This document shows, in pieces, positions 9,515-25,913 of a DNA stretch of 25,953 bases. This DNA comes from a virus. The first letter of the stretch is position 1. Each line of letters begins with the position of its first letter. The stretch covers positions 1-25,953 of IMG/VR virus record IMGVR_UViG_3300032087_000869. The stretch is one strand, 5' to 3'. The position numbers were made by a program, and so were the translations under genes. Under the pieces are notes generated by a model. The model searched no databases. It worked only from the letters and a program-made list of their open reading frames with translations, and was not told the origin of the DNA.

Positions 9515-11863
9515 ATGAATAGAGATGAACAGGCGTTGCCGAAGGACTTTGTGTTTACGCCTCCTAGTCCTGATGCTAAACTAGACCCTACACAGCCTAA
9601 AGAGGCTTTACCATCTAATTACACCTTTGAAGCACCTCAGCAAGTTACTACACAGCCTGAAGTAGGTAATGAGGATTTGGTAACATCTTTAGCAGGTGCT
9701 TTGGAAGATACATATGTAATGGGTGGCGATATAGCTCGTATGTTCTTGCAAGGTATTAGTTTAAATACGTACAATGATGGTAAAGCTTGGACTATGTCTA
9801 AGTTGATGGATGCAGGTGCTATGGATAAGCCTGCAGGTGCTCAGTCTTTATCAGGCGAAGAACTATACAAGCATATCCTACGTGGTGAACAACAGGCTAC
9901 ACAGGCAGGTAGAGAGCGTTCTCCTTATCTTACAGCAGGCGCTGAAGTGGCAGGTGGTCTATTAACTCCTAACCCTGCCGGTAAGTTACAGGCAGCTTCT
10001 ACTATTGCAGGTACAGGCTTTAGAGGAGTAAAGGCTGCGGCAGAAGGAGGTATTGCAGGTTACTTTTCGGAAGATGTAGACCAACGTACTGCTAGTGATG
10101 CTTTAGTAGGTAGTACTATAGGTTTGGGTTTTCAAGGTACGTTTGAAGGTCTTGGTTGGATGGTTAATAAAGCCACTTCTAGGAAGATTGAACAGGACTT
10201 AGTAGACATGGAGACAGGTGAGTTTACACCTATAACTCTAGCGGCTAATGAGGCTGATAAGAACGAAAACCCTTTACGTGCGTTTTATGCTGAACTGGTT
10301 GCTCCTTCCTTTGGCGCTCAGCGTATTATAAGAGAGCAGGAAGAAAAGATAATAGCACCTTACAGACTTCGTGAGTTTTTAATTAGTGAAGAAGTTGCTA
10401 AGGTTATTCCTCAAGCTAGGAAGACTATTAAAGAGTTAGAAGTGAAGCATAAGAAGGTATTATCTGATTACACTAAAAGAAGAGAAGAGTTGTTAAAAGT
10501 ACCTCCTGCAGAGCGACAAGCTGCGATGGAAGAACTCGACTTGGATTTCTCTAAACAAATGAGAGATTTAAGTCATAGAAGTGAAGAAGCTATAAGAACT
10601 GCTGAAGATACTTTTAGAATGTCTGTTATGGCTGCTTCATTGCCTACTAATATGGATAGAACTTTTGGAGAGGCTTTAGACGCTGCTCCTAATCCTAATG
10701 CTGCTTTAGCTCTTATCGATAACCAATGGGCGAACAATGGCTTTGCTATGGTGAATGATAGGTCTTTTCAGATACGTAAAAGTTCGTTCGACCCTGATAG
10801 CTTCGATGAAGATTTAAAAGACTTTGCTCCTGATATACGTGAACGCATGTCTCCTTTGATAAAACTAGCTAACTCAGAATTAGAAAGTATAGTTACTAAT
10901 GGTTGGGTTAAGGGACAGGACTTAACAAAGTTACGTACAATGTTCAGACAGCGTATTAACTCATTAGGAGATGAAGGGCAAGATGCGGCTACTAAAGCAG
11001 CTTACTCTGTAGTGGCTGACCGTATAGAGAAAACTATAAGAGGTCAGTTAAAGGGTAATCAGTTAAACGCTTACTTAGATGAACTAAAAGCTTACAAGAC
11101 CTATACAATCTTTAAGAACGCAGTTGAACAGAAGAGTAAGAAAACTGGACAGCATGGCGCTTTTTCTGCTGATGATTGGATGTTTGCTTTAGGTAAGGTA
11201 TCTAAAAAGGATAGGCAGCAAGGTGAAGGTCTTTTCCGTGGAGAGGCTGAATCGCTAGGCAGGCTTGTTAACCAAGAGCAGACAGCACAGCAACAGGCTG
11301 CTGACAACGTAGGTAAAGAACTTACTAAACAGAAAGCTAAGGAAAAAGCAAGAGAAAAAGCTGAATTGGAGCGCTTGAAAGCTCAGACAAAGGATAGACT
11401 AGAACGTCTTAAAAACCGACAGGCTAGTCAGCGTGATGTTATTGCAATAGCTGCTGAAGAGAAGAAGTTGAATGAACTAGAGCCTAAATTAAACCAAGCT
11501 AAACAGGAGTATACAGAGCTGAAAGGAAAAGCACTGGATAACAAAGTTAACTGGTTTAAGTCCATGGTTACTACAGGTATGTTAGGTAGTGGTTCAGGTG
11601 CTATGCTAGGGGCTGTTACAGGTGAGCCTATAATAGGAGGAGTAGGTGGACTTGCTTTAGGTATGACTACAGCAACTAAACTGGCTTCACCAACTGCACA
11701 GCGTGTAGCTGCAGGGCAAACAGCACCTCAACAGGCTGTTCAGTCTTTCTTACAAAAAGAAACTCCAACGTCTGTACAGGAGATAGCTAAGACACGACAG
11801 GAAGCGTTACAATATGCGTCACCTGTTATTGCTCGTATATTATCTCAAGAAGCATTAAACTAA
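9515..11863 (+). CDS. Putative internal virion / DNA-ejection protein (782 aa)
   Basis: No named family is assigned. A disordered, proline-rich N-terminus (LPKDFVFTPPSPDAKLDP and a second LPSNYTFEAP copy) is followed by a Gly/Ala segment (AGAEVAGGLLTPNPAGKL, GGIAGYFSEDVDQRTASDAL). Long coiled coils lie near residues 290-370 (ARKTIKELEVKHKKVL region) and 607-672 (AKEKAREKAELERLKAQT region). Near residues 685-725 is a Gly-rich hydrophobic stretch (MLGSGSGAMLGAVTGEPII), which could insert into membrane during ejection. It is the last gene before the bidirectional terminator. Ribosome site AAGGG is seven bases from the ATG. A glycine-rich hydrophobic region plus coiled coils is typical of podophage ejection proteins; no lytic transglycosylase motif was seen. 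Confidence 0.75.
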   Translation: MNRDEQALPKDFVFTPPSPDAKLDPTQPKEALPSNYTFEAPQQVTTQPEVGNEDLVTSLAGALEDTYVMGGDIARMFLQGISLNTYNDGKAWTMSKLMDAGAMDKPAGAQSLSGEELYKHILRGEQQATQAGRERSPYLTAGAEVAGGLLTPNPAGKLQAASTIAGTGFRGVKAAAEGGIAGYFSEDVDQRTASDALVGSTIGLGFQGTFEGLGWMVNKATSRKIEQDLVDMETGEFTPITLAANEADKNENPLRAFYAELVAPSFGAQRIIREQEEKIIAPYRLREFLISEEVAKVIPQARKTIKELEVKHKKVLSDYTKRREELLKVPPAERQAAMEELDLDFSKQMRDLSHRSEEAIRTAEDTFRMSVMAASLPTNMDRTFGEALDAAPNPNAALALIDNQWANNGFAMVNDRSFQIRKSSFDPDSFDEDLKDFAPDIRERMSPLIKLANSELESIVTNGWVKGQDLTKLRTMFRQRINSLGDEGQDAATKAAYSVVADRIEKTIRGQLKGNQLNAYLDELKAYKTYTIFKNAVEQKSKKTGQHGAFSADDWMFALGKVSKKDRQQGEGLFRGEAESLGRLVNQEQTAQQQAADNVGKELTKQKAKEKAREKAELERLKAQTKDRLERLKNRQASQRDVIAIAAEEKKLNELEPKLNQAKQEYTELKGKALDNKVNWFKSMVTTGMLGSGSGAMLGAVTGEPIIGGVGGLALGMTTATKLASPTAQRVAAGQTAPQQAVQSFLQKETPTSVQEIAKTRQEALQYASPVIARILSQEALN

Positions 11864-12104: not shown

Positions 12105-13045
12105 CCCCATTCTCCTGATAAGCCATTTGAATTGTATTCCGTTACAACTGTCTCGAAGAAGTTATCGTGTGATGTGGTAGCTATCAAAGGTTCTAACCAC
12201 TCCAACGGATTCTCCTTAACTCCATAGTTACCTCTTAACCCTAGCTGAATAAGCCTACGGTCTGCAACGTAACGAATGTATTGCTTAACCTCTTGTGAAG
12301 TCAAACCTTCTATATCTCCCATCTCATAAGCTAAGTCAATAACCTTGTCTTCTAACGCTACTGCCTCACGTACCATGCCGTATATCTGTGCTTTGAAGTC
12401 ATCGTTAACAATACGTGGATGTTCATTACAGAACTCACGAAACAGCCTTGTCATCCCTTCACAATGTAAACTCTCATCACGAATAGACCACTGAACAATC
12501 TCTCCCATGCCTCGCATCTTACCAAAGCGTGTATAGTTTAACAGCATAACGAATGCTGAGAACAATGACATACCTTCGTTAATAGCTGAACGTGCTACGG
12601 CTAATGCCAAGCCTGCATAGCTGTTAGTGTCTATGTTAGCCATAAACTCTAGCTTGTCTTTCATAGCTTCAACGTCTGCAAAGGCTGAGAATTCACTTTC
12701 AGGTAAGCCTAGTGTGTCGTTTAACAGCGCATAAGAACGTTGGTGTGTAAACTCACGATTAGCAAATGATGCTAACATACTTCTAATCTCGTTATTCTTA
12801 AACTTCTGTAAGTAGTGTTCGATGTAGTTTGTACCGACTGCTACGTCCGACTGAGTGAACAAGCGTAGTATCTGTGTAATGTGGTTCTTCTCTTGTGGTG
12901 ATAGCTTTGTCTTCCACTGCATCACATCGTCTTGTAACTTAGCTTCCCATTCTCCCCAGTGAAGGTGTTCGTGCTGTACACTATACTCAACAGCCCATGG
13001 ATACTTGAATGGCTTATAAACTTTACTACTCTCAACTAAACTCAT
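12095..13045 (-). CDS. nrdB: Ribonucleoside-diphosphate reductase, small (beta) subunit, class I
   Basis: The 316-residue beta subunit carries the di-iron/tyrosyl radical centre that starts reduction of ribonucleotides to deoxyribonucleotides. All six metal ligands are visible: D67 (QSDVAV), E98 and H101 (REFTHQRSY), E157 (INEGMS), E191 and H194 (RDESLH). The radical tyrosine Y105 sits seven residues after E98, the spacing of E. coli NrdB, so this is a canonical radical-bearing type. The C-terminus ends GEWGWQ, presumably the tail that docks in NrdA. Ribosome site AGGGG lies six bases before the ATG, which overlaps the upstream 64-aa gene by four bases. It is separated from nrdA by three small genes, in one leftward operon, so the phage can boost dNTP supply for replication. 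Confidence 0.95.
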   Translation of the reverse strand: MSLVESSKVYKPFKYPWAVEYSVQHEHLHWGEWEAKLQDDVMQWKTKLSPQEKNHITQILRLFTQSDVAVGTNYIEHYLQKFKNNEIRSMLASFANREFTHQRSYALLNDTLGLPESEFSAFADVEAMKDKLEFMANIDTNSYAGLALAVARSAINEGMSLFSAFVMLLNYTRFGKMRGMGEIVQWSIRDESLHCEGMTRLFREFCNEHPRIVNDDFKAQIYGMVREAVALEDKVIDLAYEMGDIEGLTSQEVKQYIRYVADRRLIQLGLRGNYGVKENPLEWLEPLIATTSHDNFFETVVTEYNSNGLSGEWGWQ

Positions 13046-13236
13046 AATAACCCCTGTTCTTTTAAATACACCTTCTGCGTACAGATGGTAAAGTCATACT
13101 CGATGTCAATGTTCTTTTCTAAAAAGTCTCTGTAGCGTGTAGCAGGTAGGTCTGCATAGGCTTCACAGTCTACCTGTAACACAACGTAAGAGTCTTTCGG
13201 TGTTCCTTTGTGGAATTGTATTACGTATTGGTTCAT
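13042..13236 (-). CDS. Small hypothetical protein between nrdA and nrdB (64 aa)
   Basis: Function unknown. It is a mixed alpha/beta small soluble protein: MNQYVIQFHKGTPKDSYVVL, then a helix (ADLPATRYRDFLEKN) and a closing strand (YDFTICTQKVYL). It contains two Cys (VDCEAY and TICTQ) but no CxxC, so it is not an obvious glutaredoxin even though such a partner would suit the site. It overlaps the genes on both sides by four bases, which is strong evidence that it is expressed as part of the nrd operon. Confidence 0.65.
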   Translation of the reverse strand: MNQYVIQFHKGTPKDSYVVLQVDCEAYADLPATRYRDFLEKNIDIEYDFTICTQKVYLKEQGLL

Positions 13237-13409
13237 ATCTTCTCTGACAACGCCCTAGTGATTGCATCAGTTATTGCATCGTCAAGATGTTCGTCTTTAC
13301 CACATATAAAGGTCTGTTCAGTTGAGATACCTACCATCTTAATCTGAATGACATGACCGTTAGCTACCTTTGTTACTTTAATTGATTCTATATAATTGTA
13401 TTCTTTCAT
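13233..13409 (-). CDS. Small hypothetical protein (58 aa) in the nrd operon
   Basis: Function unknown. The ATG at 13409 (MKEYNYIESIKVTKV) is preferred over an upstream in-frame TTG at 13427, which lacks a ribosome site. The ATG has AGGA close by and overlaps the stop of the 38-aa gene (ATGA). The protein looks like two or three beta strands (IKVTKVANGHVIQIKMVGIS) followed by an acidic helix (KDEHLDDAITDAITRALSE). It overlaps the next gene by four bases, so it belongs to the same coupled operon. Confidence 0.6.
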   Translation of the reverse strand: MKEYNYIESIKVTKVANGHVIQIKMVGISTEQTFICGKDEHLDDAITDAITRALSEKI

Positions 13410-16121: not shown

Positions 16122-16354
16122 GATTTTAAGAACACCTCCATGGTTGGTAGCTTTTCAAGGTCTGCTTTATACTGAACAGCTATGTAGTCTGCTAGTCTGG
16201 TTGCGCTACGGTAGTGTTGCTCTGCTTTCTTTAGGTAGTGACCTTCATCTACGTCGTAGGTGTTAACGGTTGACATGTTTTTAAATGTCTCTGCTAAGGC
16301 TAGTTCGCTGTAAAAAGCCTGTATAGTTCTAATTCTTTTTTGCAAGTCTGGCAT
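16118..16354 (-). CDS. Small helical hypothetical protein (78 aa)
   Basis: Function unknown. The frame is open as far as 16423, but the ATG at 16354 is preferred: it has GAGG about nine bases upstream and the protein then begins MPDLQKRIRTIQAFYSELAL. The longer form would begin inside the HNH gene with an unlikely Cys/Arg-rich leader. The protein is nearly all helix with many Tyr and Lys (EGHYLKKAEQHYRSATRLAD). It overlaps the 3' end of the HNH gene by 26 bases and the MazG-like gene by four bases, which supports expression within the operon. Confidence 0.65.
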   Translation of the reverse strand: MPDLQKRIRTIQAFYSELALAETFKNMSTVNTYDVDEGHYLKKAEQHYRSATRLADYIAVQYKADLEKLPTMEVFLKS

Positions 16355-16718
16355 TCTTTCTTTCCTCTGCTGTCTTTTTCTTATGACATTCTTTACATAA
16401 CAACTGTAAGTTATCAACTTCACAGAACAAGTTTTCTACAAAGCTAGGCAGGTCTTCATACTTTAATAAACTACCTGCCGGTTTGATGTGGTCAACCTGT
16501 ACGTCTTTACCTTTGAATGTTTGCTTACATTCTTCACAGTCATATTCAAACCTTGTGCGTTTGTCACTGCCTGAATAGGGCTTTTGTTTGCTCTTTAAGA
16601 ACTGATGCTTCACTGGATATCTTGACCATGCTTGTCTTAATGCTGAACGTATGAAAGAGAAGTAACGTGACTCAGTCCATGTGTTGTTTGCTCTGGTCTT
16701 TTTACCTCTCATATCCAT
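16329..16718 (-). CDS. HNH endonuclease (129 aa)
   Basis: A zinc-bearing HNH nuclease: C61-E-E-C64, D76-H77 (VQVDHIKPAG), N103 (EVDNLQLLC) and C108-K-E-C111-H112. These form the usual two CxxC zinc knuckles around a beta-beta-alpha metal site. The N-terminal segment (NNTWTESRYFSFIRSALRQA) is a conserved lead-in seen in phage HNH proteins found near replication genes. It may be a free-standing homing endonuclease or a host-DNA nicking enzyme; sequence alone cannot tell. It starts ten bases inside the exonuclease gene's end, and its stop lies within the next small gene. Confidence 0.85.
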   Translation of the reverse strand: MDMRGKKTRANNTWTESRYFSFIRSALRQAWSRYPVKHQFLKSKQKPYSGSDKRTRFEYDCEECKQTFKGKDVQVDHIKPAGSLLKYEDLPSFVENLFCEVDNLQLLCKECHKKKTAEERKNARLAKKN

Positions 16719-19609: not shown

Positions 19610-20089
19610 TTATCCATGGTTGGCATATTCGCCATGTAGTTTTTCTCTAAGCTTTCTTACAGCGTTTTCAGCGTCTTTTATGTCGGTATGTCTACCTGCA
19701 CAGTGTTTCTTGCCATTAGCTTTAACTTGCCCCCTCCATTTGCCTGTTTGTTTATCCCATAATATACCTTTCACTCCTGATGTGTTGTTTATAGGTGTGA
19801 GCTCATTATGTGCGTTTTGTGCTGTGGTGGCTACTCTAAGATTTTCTATTCGGTTATCAGTCTTGTCATTGTTTATATGGTCTAGGTTTTCAGGTGGTTG
19901 TTCGCCCTTAACTAAAAACCATATTATTCTATGCGCACGATATGATGTATTTCTAAATCTTGTTACGATGTATCCTTGCCCATTAACATTACCTGTAGGG
20001 TGGTAAGCGTCGTTGATAAGTTTGAATAACTTACCATCTTCATATTTGAAGTATTCACCGATGTCTTCAGGTATCTTGTTTCGTTTCAT
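19610..20089 (-). CDS. HNH endonuclease with AP2 DNA-binding domain (159 aa)
   Basis: A homing-endonuclease-type protein. The HNH_3-like core is H53 (YRAHRIIWFLV), D70-H71 (NLDHINNDKTDNR) and N83 (IENLRVAT). It is followed from about residue 100 by an AP2-like DNA-binding domain (NNTSGVKGILWDKQTGKWRG, QVKANGKKH). The N-terminal part (IGEYFKYEDGKLFKLI...TGNVNGQGYIVTRF) is the usual lead-in for this family. It sits directly beside the DNA polymerase gene, a classic homing site. The start overlaps the end of the endonuclease VII gene by 23 bases in another frame, with GGAG seven bases before the ATG. No intron or intein is seen in the polymerase, so it is probably free-standing. Confidence 0.9.
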   Translation of the reverse strand: MKRNKIPEDIGEYFKYEDGKLFKLINDAYHPTGNVNGQGYIVTRFRNTSYRAHRIIWFLVKGEQPPENLDHINNDKTDNRIENLRVATTAQNAHNELTPINNTSGVKGILWDKQTGKWRGQVKANGKKHCAGRHTDIKDAENAVRKLREKLHGEYANHG

Positions 20090-20504
20090 TATGTTTCTCC
20101 AAATAGTCTATTGCCTTATTCAACAGCTCTGTATTATCTTTAAAGTTACCTATGCCAGTGTTACAGCTATTGCATAGCAGCTCTCTAACCTTACCAGTAG
20201 TGTGGCAGTGGTCAACTGCAAAGTCCTTTCTATTGTCCTCTGTGGTGCACTTACATATAGCACATAAGCCGTTCTGTAACTGATATAGACCTTTATAGTG
20301 TGTCTTCTTTCTGGTATAGTTTGCTTTACTGCATACTTTACAAGTAGAACCTAACCCATCAGGCTTGTAAGCGTTGTTAGGAAAATGGTCAACTGGCAAG
20401 TGTTCTTTGCACGTGTCGCATTTTTTTATTTCGCTTGTCTCGTTTAGTTCTTTCTGTAAACTCTTCAAGTTCAAACCGAGGTCTAGTTCTGGTTGTCTTT
20501 TCAT
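20067..20504 (-). CDS. Recombination endonuclease VII (145 aa)
   Basis: A Holliday-junction resolvase-like nuclease of the T4 endonuclease VII family. The N-terminal part has a zinc knuckle (C29-D-T-C32 with C55-K-V-C58, around the DHFPNNAYKPDGLGSTC segment). The catalytic part has C81-A-I-C84 and C111-N-S-C114 (zinc), D98-H99-C100-H101 (FAVDHCHTTGKVRELLC) and N120 (GIGNFKDN), ending with a LLNKAIDYLEKH helix. These enzymes resolve branched DNA before packaging. It sits between primase-associated and polymerase genes. The upstream ribosome site (GGGAA) is weak. Confidence 0.93.
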   Translation of the reverse strand: MKRQPELDLGLNLKSLQKELNETSEIKKCDTCKEHLPVDHFPNNAYKPDGLGSTCKVCSKANYTRKKTHYKGLYQLQNGLCAICKCTTEDNRKDFAVDHCHTTGKVRELLCNSCNTGIGNFKDNTELLNKAIDYLEKHNETKQDT

Positions 20505-20519
20505 AATTATTGTTTCCCG

Positions 20520-20951
20520 TCATAACTCAATCTCCTTATTGTTTAACATGTCACATAACTGTTCAGCGCATTGTTCTGACATGCGAATAGTACCTAGAGA
20601 TGGATAAGTGTCACATCCAATCACTTTATAATTTTGATTAAAATCCTTAAACACTTCACAGTATTGATTATCCCAATCCGTCTCATGCTCTTGCACGAAC
20701 TGACATAACATGTCGTAATCATGTACTTTTTTAGGTACTGGTATAGCAGGCTCGAATGTATTTACGTATTCTTTTTGCATAATAAACGTAGCTTCCCATT
20801 TAACTTTTGGTTTTATCCTATACTCCTTATTTTTATACCATGTAGGGGTAGGAATATATGTCCAAGCATTTACCATATCATTGTATATCTCTATCTCAGC
20901 ACCGTCTGCCCATGCCTTGATTAATTCTGCGTGTTTATGTGGTTTGCTCAT
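20520..20951 (-). CDS. Conserved phage protein of unknown function (143 aa)
   Basis: Function unknown. The opening KPHKHAELIKAWADGAEIEI, followed by a Trp-rich strand region (WTYIPTPTWYKNKEYRIKPK), is a pattern I associate with small phage proteins in which a helix precedes a short beta domain ending in YRIKP. The second half (YDMLCQFVQEHETDWDNQYC onward) is mixed and shows no catalytic motif. The ATG overlaps the primase-helicase stop (ATGA), so it is coupled to that gene, and it precedes endonuclease VII. Confidence 0.75.
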   Translation of the reverse strand: MSKPHKHAELIKAWADGAEIEIYNDMVNAWTYIPTPTWYKNKEYRIKPKVKWEATFIMQKEYVNTFEPAIPVPKKVHDYDMLCQFVQEHETDWDNQYCEVFKDFNQNYKVIGCDTYPSLGTIRMSEQCAEQLCDMLNNKEIEL

Positions 20952-22528
20952 AATGCTTCCTCTTCAAATGTTTCTGTCATTCTGCCACTGTCTAGGTCGT
21001 ATAATAACTGACAAGCCTTACCAGTGATACCTGCAAACCTATTCTTTAATACACGTACATGTGTGGTGTTCCTAACCGTAGGGTCATCTGCCTGACCATT
21101 CCGTTCTAAACCCAACACCATGTCGCTAAGCTGTGCAATACTACCTGAACCACGTAATTGAGCTAAACTTGTACTTGCGCCTTCTTCATGTCCTTTCTTA
21201 TCAGGTCTTTTCAGGTGTGATACAATGATAAGCGAAATCTCTGTCTCTTGTACTAACGTTCTTAGCTTAGTCATTATCTCGTCTATTGCTTTGCGCTCGT
21301 CTCCGTTGTCCTGTGCTGATACAATAATACTAACATGGTCTAAGAATATGTACTGGCAATCGGTAACTCTACTAAGATAGCGAACCCTATTAACAATGTT
21401 GTCAATGCTACTGCTCCCAAAATGGTCAAACATAAATATACGGTCTGTTCCAAGAGTTGCTTTGAATGCTTCGTCTTTCTCATCTTGTGTAGCCTGTGTA
21501 GTTGGTAAGTGTAAAGGTTTGTTAGCGTGTAATGACATAATGCTTAAACCAGTTTTGCGTGTACTTTCTTCTAAGAACATCAAGCCAACGTTATCGCCTG
21601 TGTTCTGTAGTATGTGATAAACCACTTCACGTAGAAACTGACTCTTACCTAAACCACTACCTGCTGTTACTGTTACCAGTTCACCCTTGCGTATGCCGTA
21701 TGTAAGCTCATTCAAACCCTTGTATGGATAGTCACAGTCTGATTTTTCCAAAGGCTTCATAACCTCGTCGTACAAACTTGCACCGCCTATGATGCCATCA
21801 GGTGTCCATCGTTTAGCGTTCCAAAACTGTTTCATTGCTTCAGCTGACTTGTTAGCCATTAAAAAGTCTGAACAGTCTTTAAAATCTGGTCTACCTCCAA
21901 CAATCTTAGCCTTATGTCCTAGAACTTCAGCACATTCATTAGCAGCTTTTACGCCTGCATCGTCATTGTCAAACCATATAATAACTTCATCAAATGAATT
22001 AAGAAAGTCGTAGTTATTCTTAATGTCTTTTAAAGCCGATGTAGCACCGTTTCTAACACTAACACTAGGTGTTGCATATCTACCTGACATTTGAAAGAAT
22101 GACATAGCGTCAAATTCACCCTCAGTTATGACAACAAACTTACCACCCTCTGCAAACTTATCCTGTCCGAATAGCTGTGTAGCGTCTGTAAAGCTACCCT
22201 CTATCTTAAACAGTTTTTCACCATTGATTCTTACTTTATAGGCTTTCTCGTTGTCAATAGGGAAATATAAATCATCCCCTTTATAACCAACATTGTAAAA
22301 CTTACACGTTTCAAACGTTAGCTTTCTATCTGATAACGGTTGTATATCTAAATTATGTTTCATTGTTTTACCTTTGTAAGGCTTTACAGCCTTGTTAAAC
22401 TTAACATCATTACCCTCGTATCGTCGTTGTTGACAGCTAAAGCAATTACCCCAGTCATTTTCGTCTATTGCATAAGCGTCTGAACTATTACACATAGGAC
22501 ATGGTAGTCCACTCTTTACATAAGCCAT
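20948..22528 (-). CDS. DNA primase-helicase (T7 gp4-like fusion)
   Basis: A single chain with primase and DnaB-family helicase. The zinc-binding site is C10/C13/C29/C32 (LPCPMCNSSD ... GNCFSCQQ). The TOPRIM primase site has E136 (VITEGEFDAM) and D187/D189 (WFDNDDAG). The helicase has Walker A GSGLGKS at 290-296, catalytic E320 (FLEEST), Walker B D397 (YIFLDHVSI), H438 (IVSHLKRP) and a sensor-like LRGSGSIAQLSD. It ends in an acidic tail (TFEEEAL), like the gp4 tail that contacts the polymerase. At 526 residues it is close to T7 gp4 (566). The ATG has AGGAG six bases upstream, and the promoter at 22630 gives it a leader of about 95 bases with possible hairpins. Confidence 0.96.
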   Translation of the reverse strand: MAYVKSGLPCPMCNSSDAYAIDENDWGNCFSCQQRRYEGNDVKFNKAVKPYKGKTMKHNLDIQPLSDRKLTFETCKFYNVGYKGDDLYFPIDNEKAYKVRINGEKLFKIEGSFTDATQLFGQDKFAEGGKFVVITEGEFDAMSFFQMSGRYATPSVSVRNGATSALKDIKNNYDFLNSFDEVIIWFDNDDAGVKAANECAEVLGHKAKIVGGRPDFKDCSDFLMANKSAEAMKQFWNAKRWTPDGIIGGASLYDEVMKPLEKSDCDYPYKGLNELTYGIRKGELVTVTAGSGLGKSQFLREVVYHILQNTGDNVGLMFLEESTRKTGLSIMSLHANKPLHLPTTQATQDEKDEAFKATLGTDRIFMFDHFGSSSIDNIVNRVRYLSRVTDCQYIFLDHVSIIVSAQDNGDERKAIDEIMTKLRTLVQETEISLIIVSHLKRPDKKGHEEGASTSLAQLRGSGSIAQLSDMVLGLERNGQADDPTVRNTTHVRVLKNRFAGITGKACQLLYDLDSGRMTETFEEEAL

Positions 22529-24915: not shown

Positions 24916-25203
24916 TTAAAACTCCCTCGCAATTACAAAGCCGTCGCCACGTGCTACGACATACTCTAATATTTCATATATAGACACATCGGAATAACAC
25001 TCTTTAAGCTCCTCTAGACTTTCGTACTCGTTAAACTCGCAACGTATAGCGACGATATCTAATTCAATGTTTGATCCAGTTTCCTCGGATAATTCCTCGA
25101 GATACTCGGCTAATGCATAAGCTCCTTCACGTGACCAGTTTGCCCAGTCATCTTGTAATAATTCATCTGCAATCATAGAGGAAGTTTGTTTAATGTATAT
25201 CAT
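24916..25203 (-). CDS. Conserved-looking small acidic phage protein (95 aa)
   Basis: Function unknown. The frame is open to 25311, but the ATG at 25203 is chosen because AGGTG lies eight bases upstream and promoter P5 lies between it and the upstream ATG. It reads MIYIKQTSSMIADELLQDDW, then ANWSREGAYALAEYLEELSE and IELDIVAIRCEFNEYESLEE. The 'EGAxALxEYLEE...VAIRCExxEY' pattern is one I associate with a widespread phage small-protein group of unknown role. It is the first gene of the leftward early region. Confidence 0.75.
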   Translation of the reverse strand: MIYIKQTSSMIADELLQDDWANWSREGAYALAEYLEELSEETGSNIELDIVAIRCEFNEYESLEELKECYSDVSIYEILEYVVARGDGFVIAREF

Positions 25204-25242
25204 GGTATTCACCTGTTTGTTGTGTTTGTTAATCGAGACCCT

Positions 25243-25271
25243 ACGATATTGCAAGGCCTTTGGTTTGTCAA
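25243..25271 (-). promoter_or_regulatory. Leftward sigma-70 promoter P5 (rightmost leftward promoter)
   Basis: On the minus strand a perfect TTGACA (25271-25266), a 17-base spacer and TATCGT (25248-25243), four of six matches. Transcription would begin near 25236, 33 bases before the 95-aa gene. The spacer holds AAGGCCTT, a short palindrome. Confidence 0.65.
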
Positions 25272-25301
25272 TTATGGGTTGCCCCGTTGACTTGGTTCCC
25301 A

Positions 25302-25310
25302 TTATCCACA
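25302..25310 (+). promoter_or_regulatory. Exact DnaA box TTATCCACA
   Basis: A perfect match to the E. coli-type DnaA box, pointing opposite to the three exact boxes at 25714-25757. It marks the left edge of the gene-free right-end region. Confidence 0.6.
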
Positions 25311-25311
25311 C

Positions 25312-25440
25312 AATCGAATAACAACATATCCGACCAGTTAAACTATTTGATAATCCTTTGATTTTCTTAGGTTTTTAGTTACCTGTGATTATCCTGTGAT
25401 TACCTAGGATTGTACAAATAGTATACAATATATTAGTCAT
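25312..25440. other. AT-rich gene-free stretch, possible unwinding element
   Basis: No gene is seen. The stretch is AT-rich (TTTGATTTTCTTAGGTTTTT region) and holds two CCTGTGATTA units at 25382 and near 25393, forerunners of the array further right, plus a TATACAATATATTAG run. It could be the melting part of an origin. Confidence 0.35.
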
Positions 25441-25442
25441 GT

Positions 25443-25542
25443 GGTTGTCTAATGGTGGTCAATAGGTTGTCTAGATAGGCATGGTTCTTGTGGTTGTCTA
25501 TAGGTGGTCATAAGGTAGTCATAAGGTAGTCATAAGGTCCCT
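25443..25542 (+). repeat. 11-bp phased array of GGTNGTC
   Basis: GGTNGTC occurs at 25443, 25454, 25465, 25492, 25503, 25514 and 25525, with a partial copy (GGTCCC) at 25536 and a poor one (GGTTCTT) near 25483. Steps are exactly 11 bases apart from one gap. The last units are the tandem GGTAGTCATAA. Further single copies lie at 25839 (GGTGGTC) and 25859 (GTTGGTC). Confidence 0.85.
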
Positions 25543-25561
25543 ATGACATCCTCACGTTTAC

Positions 25562-25757
25562 CCTGTGAACACCTGTGGACAACCCTGTGAATAACCTGTG
25601 GATACCTGCCTGTGAGTATCCTGTGCATATCGTATGTATAACCTTGGGGATATCCTGTGGACAGCCTGTGGGTAACCCTGTGGACAAACCTGTGGACAAC
25701 CCTGTGAATAACCTGTGGATAAACCTGTGGAAAACCTGTGGATAACCCTGTGGATAA
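25562..25757 (+). repeat. Iteron array: 15 CCTGTG units, 11-12-bp phased, with three exact DnaA boxes
   Basis: CCTGTG begins at 25562, 25572, 25584, 25595, 25609, 25620, 25654, 25665, 25677, 25689, 25701, 25712, 25724, 25735 and 25747. Typical units extend to CCTGTGGATAA or CCTGTGGACAA. Exact TGTGGATAA, the reverse of the DnaA box, occurs at 25714-25722, 25737-25745 and 25749-25757; others differ by one base. Near-helical spacing puts all sites on one face of the DNA. This looks like an origin-type DnaA or initiator binding array. Confidence 0.85.
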
Positions 25758-25763
25758 GCCCCC

Positions 25764-25786
25764 GGGGAGGGGTCTTAGGGGTGGGG
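25764..25786 (+). other. Four-tract G-quadruplex motif
   Basis: Four GGGG tracts (25764-25767, 25769-25772, 25778-25781, 25783-25786) with loops A, TCTTA and T. It abuts CCCC to make the palindrome CCCCGGGG at 25760-25767. It is a sharp G-rich island in AT-rich DNA, seven bases after the last DnaA box. Confidence 0.75.
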
Positions 25787-25913
25787 ATTTCTTAAGGGTG
25801 CCCCATAGTTTTACAAAAGAGTGAAATTGACTACTAAAGGTGGTCAAAAGTACCAAAAGTTGGTCAAAAAGACTACTTAAGAATACCTAAGAATATCAAA
25901 GGTTTACGTAGGT

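Follow-up and report, generated by a model that had tools for sequence, protein, structure and literature searches.

The DNA analysed here (the window) is a complete IMG/VR record of 25,953 bases, a linear fragment from an uncultured, probably marine, virus. Structural genes run rightward up to position 11863, while a replication module encoding ribonucleotide reductase, a MazG-like protein, an exonuclease, a PolA-type polymerase and a primase-helicase runs leftward from about 25.3 kb (Table 1). Three HNH/endonuclease VII-type genes (16329-16718, 19610-20089 and 20067-20504) interrupt this module. The phage had been taken for a T7-type phage, which holds as regards its T7-type polymerase and primase-helicase; the fragment yielded no gene for an RNA polymerase, an absence that is provisional as it concerns the fragment only. 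A T7-type polymerase and primase-helicase together with a ribonucleotide reductase and no RNA polymerase in the fragment is the combination of Zobellviridae/cobavirus-like phages, and the window primase is 44-51% identical to those of cobavirus and HTVC103P-group phages. The lack of an RNA polymerase in the fragment and this kinship of the primase thus argue against a classical T7-type autographivirus. The terminase is 28-42% identical to those of named phages among the matches listed, no capsid gene was identified in the window, and the window had no megablast match among named phages. A scan of a genome collection for the host returned nothing but metagenome bins from unrelated taxa, which were taken to be mis-binned. 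No match to a Rep-like initiator, as would accompany plasmid iterons, was obtained among the proteins scanned, where several small early genes have no assignment.

A relative 95-97% identical to the window (L083) extends beyond the window end. Past the array described below it carries a perfect TTGACA-17-TATAAT promoter, a gene for a 139-residue AT-hook protein and then the large terminase gene. The AT-hook protein is a putative small terminase (TerS), by its position and AT-hooks rather than by a family match, and a TerS search of named phages returned none. This continuation places the array between divergent early and late operons, with early genes leftward and the putative TerS and the large terminase (TerL) rightward, the position held by a T7-type terminal repeat.

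Table 1. Coordinates of genes and sequence elements in the window
Feature	Position	Strand	Remark
T7-type DNA primase/helicase	20948..22528	-	PHROG 239, E 1.9e-170
First leftward gene of early/replication module	24916..25311	-	later start at ~25203 likely, as in L083
Isolated exact DnaA box, opposite orientation, outside array	25302..25310	+	
Two extra, degenerate CCTGTG units (CCTGTGATTAT, CCTGTGATTAC)	25382..25398	+	
Left flanking block CCTATGACATCCTCACGTTTAC (family consensus ..CnCACACACTTGTC)	25540..25561	+	predicted left edge of terminal-repeat region
15 CCTGTG(GATAA) units	25562..25752	+	11.6 bp period
Exact DnaA box TTATCCACA	25714..25722	-	
Exact DnaA box TTATCCACA	25737..25745	-	
Exact DnaA box TTATCCACA	25749..25757	-	
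G-rich element CCCCGGGGAGGGG...GGGGTGGGG	25760..25786	+	family form GGGGCGGGGGAGGGG, directly after array
Right flanking block GGTGCCCCATAGTTTTACAAAAGAGTGAAATTG (consensus GTAGCCACCCAGGCACAAAATAGGGnAAAATT)	25797..25829	+	predicted right edge

The CCTGTG array

The original prediction described fifteen CCTGTG units within 200 bases, 10-14 bp apart with one larger gap, and this description is borne out. The units, all on the + strand, start at 25562, 25572, 25584, 25595, 25609, 25620, 25654, 25665, 25677, 25689, 25701, 25712, 25724, 25735 and 25747, the larger step measuring 34 bp. Such a density lies far above chance, as Markov shuffles of the intergenic stretch (n=2000) gave at most 3 CCTGTG per 196 bp against the 15 observed; in the whole window CCTGTG occurs 44 times against 11.4 expected. 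In the coding sequence between 126 and 22528, CACAGG is found on the sense strand only (25 to 0), a bias shared by ACAGGC, GCAGGT and ACACAG, so that it may be no signal but an effect of codon usage.

The three exact DnaA boxes reported in the array were recovered, as were the one-base variants and the fourth exact box of opposite direction. Eight further array units are one mismatch away from the DnaA box (TTGTCCACA three times, TTATTCACA twice, and TTTTCCACA, TTACCCACA and GTATCCACA once each), and only nine such sites occur in the remainder of the window. The array boxes all read TGTGGATAA toward the G-rich element. The strict helical phasing that had been proposed does not hold, since the best-fit period is 11.6 bp and not 10.5, so that the face presented by successive units rotates slowly; the period is nearer to the 11-bp pitch of the DnaA arrays in E. 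coli oriC. With three exact and eight one-mismatch boxes at this period, the array has the spacing of a cooperative DnaA-box cluster, and consensus, orientation and pitch support its reading as a row of DnaA boxes. The sigma-54 core TGGCAYN5TTGC has no occurrence in the window.

Constant layout and exchanged units in relatives

The window belongs to a large group of uncultured phages, from which searches with the terminase gathered 397 related loci, some of them the same contig fetched twice. The relatives share a fixed order, consisting of a CTCACAC-like block, the array, the element GGGGCGGGGGAGGGG, about 25 bp, a GTAGCCACCCAGGCACAAAATAGGG (CACAAAA) block, the promoter and the terminase gene. 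The left block, read by eye in the window and by a weight-matrix search in relatives, was recovered in several hundred of these at a median of 238 bp from the right block, the weight matrix of which matches 351 loci, and the G-rich element is present in 124 relatives, 75 of them distinct. Short repeats also lie outside the blocks of the window, with several copies of GGTAGTCATAA 11 bp apart on the left (25440-25540) and GGTGGTCAAAA/GTTGGTCAAAA on the right (25838-25880).

The surroundings of the array are conserved, but its unit sequence is not. The array of L083 is 99.5% identical to that of the window over 197 bp, and L005, with a primase 94% identical, has CTGTTTAG-type repeats in place of the DnaA array. 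(L005 and L003 also differ in the early genes adjoining the array.) A further class of unit reads TTGGCAYGNNNCTTGCAT, the -24/-12 consensus of sigma-54. Left of the G-rich element in the 75 distinct relatives, 207 exact DnaA boxes occur in 38 loci against 0.77 expected, an enrichment of about 270-fold, and 94 sigma-54 cores (TGGCAYN5TTGC) occur in 35 loci against 0.50 expected. Control spacings of N4 and N6 gave zero matches in the same relatives, the sigma-54 matches agree with the RpoN consensus at their free positions too, and beyond the G-rich element, toward the terminase gene, there are neither DnaA boxes nor sigma-54 cores. The boxes of the family are spaced by 11, 22 or 12 bp and keep a single orientation in 36 of the 38 loci.

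When 114 distinct relatives are classified, 42 carry DnaA units, 29 sigma-54 units and 43 neither. On a tree of the 114 terminase proteins, which is built on few columns and in which many forks are weak, the three classes require at least 34 changes, with DnaA and sigma-54 types alternating among near neighbours. One contig even holds two strain versions, a sigma-54 array with and without an inserted DnaA pair. The array turns over quickly and still comes back to the same two host sequences. What related phages share with the window is thus the intergenic place of the array and its surroundings, and not the type of unit. Host DnaA is nevertheless the likely ligand of the window's array, judging from the match in consensus, orientation and pitch and from the enrichment of exact boxes at the equivalent place in relatives, although that place is not specific to DnaA across the group.

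Sites of other regulators were also sought in the array zone. LexA sites number 8 in 4 loci (1.7 expected) and Fur-like sites 6 in 4 loci (0.4 expected), and with four loci each these are too weak to be claimed as further classes; LexA-like (CTGTN8ACAG) and Fur-like (GATAATGATTCTCATT) sites are seen in the array zones of L234, L225, L201 and L185. Sites for CRP, FNR, PurR, ArgR, Rex, PhoB, HexR and Zur are not enriched in this zone (0-1 each). An enrichment of primase sites (GGGTC/TGGTC/GTGTC) was rejected, as the counts in the window are too small and the family is mixed. Single sigma-54 cores (e.g. TTGGCACGATAGTTGC) lie left of the array and face the early genes in L182, L217, L315 and L123, and may mark a sigma-54 promoter of early genes in lytic phages.

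Evidence for a proposed genome end at the array

The closest guide to the position of the physical ends is the Lentibacter phage ICBM1, a cobavirus, for which direct terminal repeats of 172 bp with a conserved GC-rich end have been mapped by PacBio sequencing (PMC6775973). Its primase is about 44% identical to that of the window. In ICBM1, short repeats are followed by GGGGCGGGAAGGGGGG, about 30 bp, the repeat end, ACACAAAA and a TTGACA-17-TATAAT promoter leading into the late genes, an order matching that of the window's group, and an element resembling the G-rich one lies near the end of the mapped repeat. The terminal repeats of ICBM1, ICBM3 and RIO-1 are without exact DnaA or strict sigma-54 sites. 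RIO-1 does have an 8-bp tandem array of the GCTAGANG type (121-330) beside its mapped 121-bp terminal repeat, and in VpV262 six sigma-54-like GG-N10-GC sites (0.04 expected) lie beside an annotated 138-bp repeat.

Within the group, G005 is the only contig with a direct repeat at its ends whose length is not an assembler k-mer; the repeat is 146 bp and covers the block, the array and the G-rich element. Contig ends are about three times denser over the array zone, with no sharp pile-up, and this diffuse excess was rejected as proof of termini. Several complete contigs close elsewhere, with overlaps of assembler length (127 bp). By analogy and from this one contig, and with no sharp peak of contig ends, the placement of a terminal repeat is well supported, not proven. 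The array would accordingly lie in the genome-end and packaging region, within a predicted direct terminal repeat between the operons, and the physical ends of the window's phage are predicted to fall at the array.

DnaA arrays near genome ends are also found in other phages. An idealised DnaA array matches 73 named phage records, and among the T7-like phages, the terminal repeats of which were identified by comparing the two ends of each record, four exact boxes lie within the 177 bp identical ends of A7, five within the 195 bp end repeat of phiEap-1 (mostly 21-22 bp apart), six within the 292 bp repeat of ZK1 (mostly 21 bp apart) and two within the end repeat of at least 114 bp in cp31. P483, nasanit and NJ2 have the array just past the large terminase gene, at the expected site of the terminal repeat. 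In the Arthrobacter phages Tiff81 and Seahorse, an array of four CCTGTGGATAA units and a G-run stop about 60 bp short of the right end as deposited, and gene 1 of Tiff81 encodes the small terminase. A search of named phages for the sigma-54 array by blastn, which is insensitive to gapped motifs, found none, and no relevant work on DnaA boxes within the terminal repeats of phages came out of a literature search.

Not every DnaA array is linked to a genome end, since such arrays also occur, without a packaging end, in circular microviruses, within the genomes of Lactococcus phages and in a small plasmid. In Microvirus mar31 (L339), a single-stranded DNA phage, about 11 perfect CCTGTGGAAAA repeats occupy positions 1954-2075 in the capsid-pilot gene interval. 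An unrelated viral contig (L077) has 23 exact DnaA boxes at 12862-13339 near a sigma factor gene. Since the arrays in L077, L130, L140 and L160 adjoin sigma factor, helicase/primase or unassigned genes, other uses of DnaA arrays exist.

Possible functions and comparison with known systems

The exchange of a DnaA row for sigma-54 sites in relatives suggests that host proteins are docked on the chromosome ends of these phages. We tentatively read the array, with somewhat less than an even chance of being right, as a docking array for a host protein, here DnaA, serving as a nucleoprotein landmark for processing of the terminal repeat or for packaging. In the window's lineage, DnaA monomers would occupy the same-way boxes spaced by 11-12 bp and form a static nucleoprotein filament ending at the G-rich element. 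This filament would most likely serve the processing of ends on the replicated concatemer, as a fixed landmark or as a roadblock, possibly by placing the terminase at its two cut sites, or by holding or duplicating the terminal repeat, and in other lineages sigma-54 sites would do the equivalent job. DnaA and the sigma-54 holoenzyme are both tight binders of double-stranded DNA that do not process it, and as their recognition sequences are nearly invariant across bacteria, an array built from them would survive a change of host. Against this reading count the 43 relatives in neither class and the terminal repeats of ICBM1, ICBM3 and RIO-1 devoid of such sites.

The original prediction proposed DnaA-assisted initiation. 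At such an origin, DnaA on the 11-bp array would open AT-rich DNA to the right and help load the phage primase-helicase. An AT-rich stretch does lie right of the array, the site is between divergent operons, TAGTAG-like triplets follow the G-rich element in several relatives, and a pitch of 11-12 bp with a single orientation is that of oriC DnaA arrays (PMC4451416). At an oriC-like origin the boxes should be conserved with the replication machinery, but the replication genes are common to relatives with sigma-54 arrays or neither type, L005 among those without a DnaA array. With about a quarter of the 114 relatives of sigma-54 type and over a third of neither, the firing of an origin with help from DnaA cannot be what the array does in general. 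T7-like phages, moreover, carry their boxes in terminal repeats, which in T7 are not the origin, and the present phage encodes a primase-helicase and polymerase of its own. We consider such an origin unlikely in the window, though it is the main rival of the docking reading. The iteron alternative, in which the units serve a phage initiator or the small terminase and resemble DnaA boxes by chance, draws on the iteron-like difference of unit sequence between lineages and on the AT-hooks of the adjoining putative small terminase. It is very improbable, as two independent classes fit two host consensuses exactly, with zero matches at altered sigma-54 spacing, and a near-identical terminase protein stands beside either class.

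Titration of DnaA had also been offered, and can be widened to a decoy in which hundreds of replicated genomes with about ten sites each would sequester DnaA or sigma-54, and thereby stop host initiation or sigma-54 programmes. The many sites and the interchange of two unrelated host regulators fit a decoy, as do the few relatives with LexA or Fur-like sites. A decoy could lie anywhere, in any orientation and at any pitch, yet place, orientation and pitch are all conserved, and the decoy reading leaves unexplained why the sites keep to the array's side of the G-rich element, within the early-terminase interval; we regard both titration and its supposed effect on the host as improbable. Control of the divergent early and late promoters by DnaA or sigma-54 holoenzyme seems to us to have a similarly small chance. 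Here 73 of the 94 sigma-54 sites face the early genes, a single sigma-54 site lies to the left of the array in some relatives of the DnaA class, and the terminase gene of L083 follows a perfect sigma-70 promoter. Arrays of 6-12 same-way boxes, however, far exceed the needs of known regulated promoters, T7-like phages with an RNA polymerase of their own also have DnaA boxes in their terminal repeats, and the window is without a sigma-54 site.

Extending the docking reading beyond this group, it may be, still more tentatively, that unrelated tailed phages have repeatedly built interchangeable chromosome-end arrays for universal host DNA-binding proteins (DnaA, sigma-54 holoenzyme, perhaps LexA and Fur). 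What would matter is tight, static binding at the ends, serving end processing, packaging or entry and not the usual function of the protein. If true, host replication and transcription proteins would be tied to the processing of phage genome ends, and we know of no established role of T7-type end arrays in this process. Cultured T7-like phages with deposited ends (P483, phiEap-1) offer systems for a direct test, and the swap between DnaA and sigma-54 is a natural comparison for which property of the bound protein matters.

Among known systems, T7 has the short repeats SRL and SRR, with CCTAAAG units about 12-13 bp apart. The direct terminal repeats of T7-like phages, which SRL/SRR adjoin in T7, likewise combine a short repeat array with a genome end, placed between the early genes and the terminase side, and in A7, phiEap-1, ZK1, cp31 and P483 a DnaA-box version lies within the repeat. 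The T7 units are not host-protein sites, whereas the unit is a DnaA box in the window and a sigma-54 site in relatives, and the T7-like ends are known from deposited records, whereas the window's end is placed by comparison. ICBM1, of the Zobellviridae (PMC6775973), resembles the window's group in its GC-rich repeat end, in ACACAAAA past that end and in a strong sigma-70 promoter into the late genes, but has another repeat unit, no DnaA or sigma-54 sites and replication proteins only about 44% identical. The E. coli oriC arrays (R5M-tau2-I1-I2) consist of 9-mers plus 2 bp at an 11-bp pitch in one orientation (PMC4451416), and share with the window same-way 9-mers separated by gaps of 2-3 bp; the window differs in the absence of chromosomal partners, in a phage-encoded helicase and in a unit type that is not conserved in relatives. 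The right end of Tiff81 and Seahorse shares the CCTGTGGATAA array, the G-run and the genome end, in unrelated phages and with only four units. Finally, in lambda cosB the host protein IHF, bound at site I1, helps to form the terminase nucleoprotein complex (PMC4856287), a role of a host DNA-binding protein that is a precedent for a docking array, with one IHF site in lambda where the window's group has 6-15 DnaA or sigma-54 sites.
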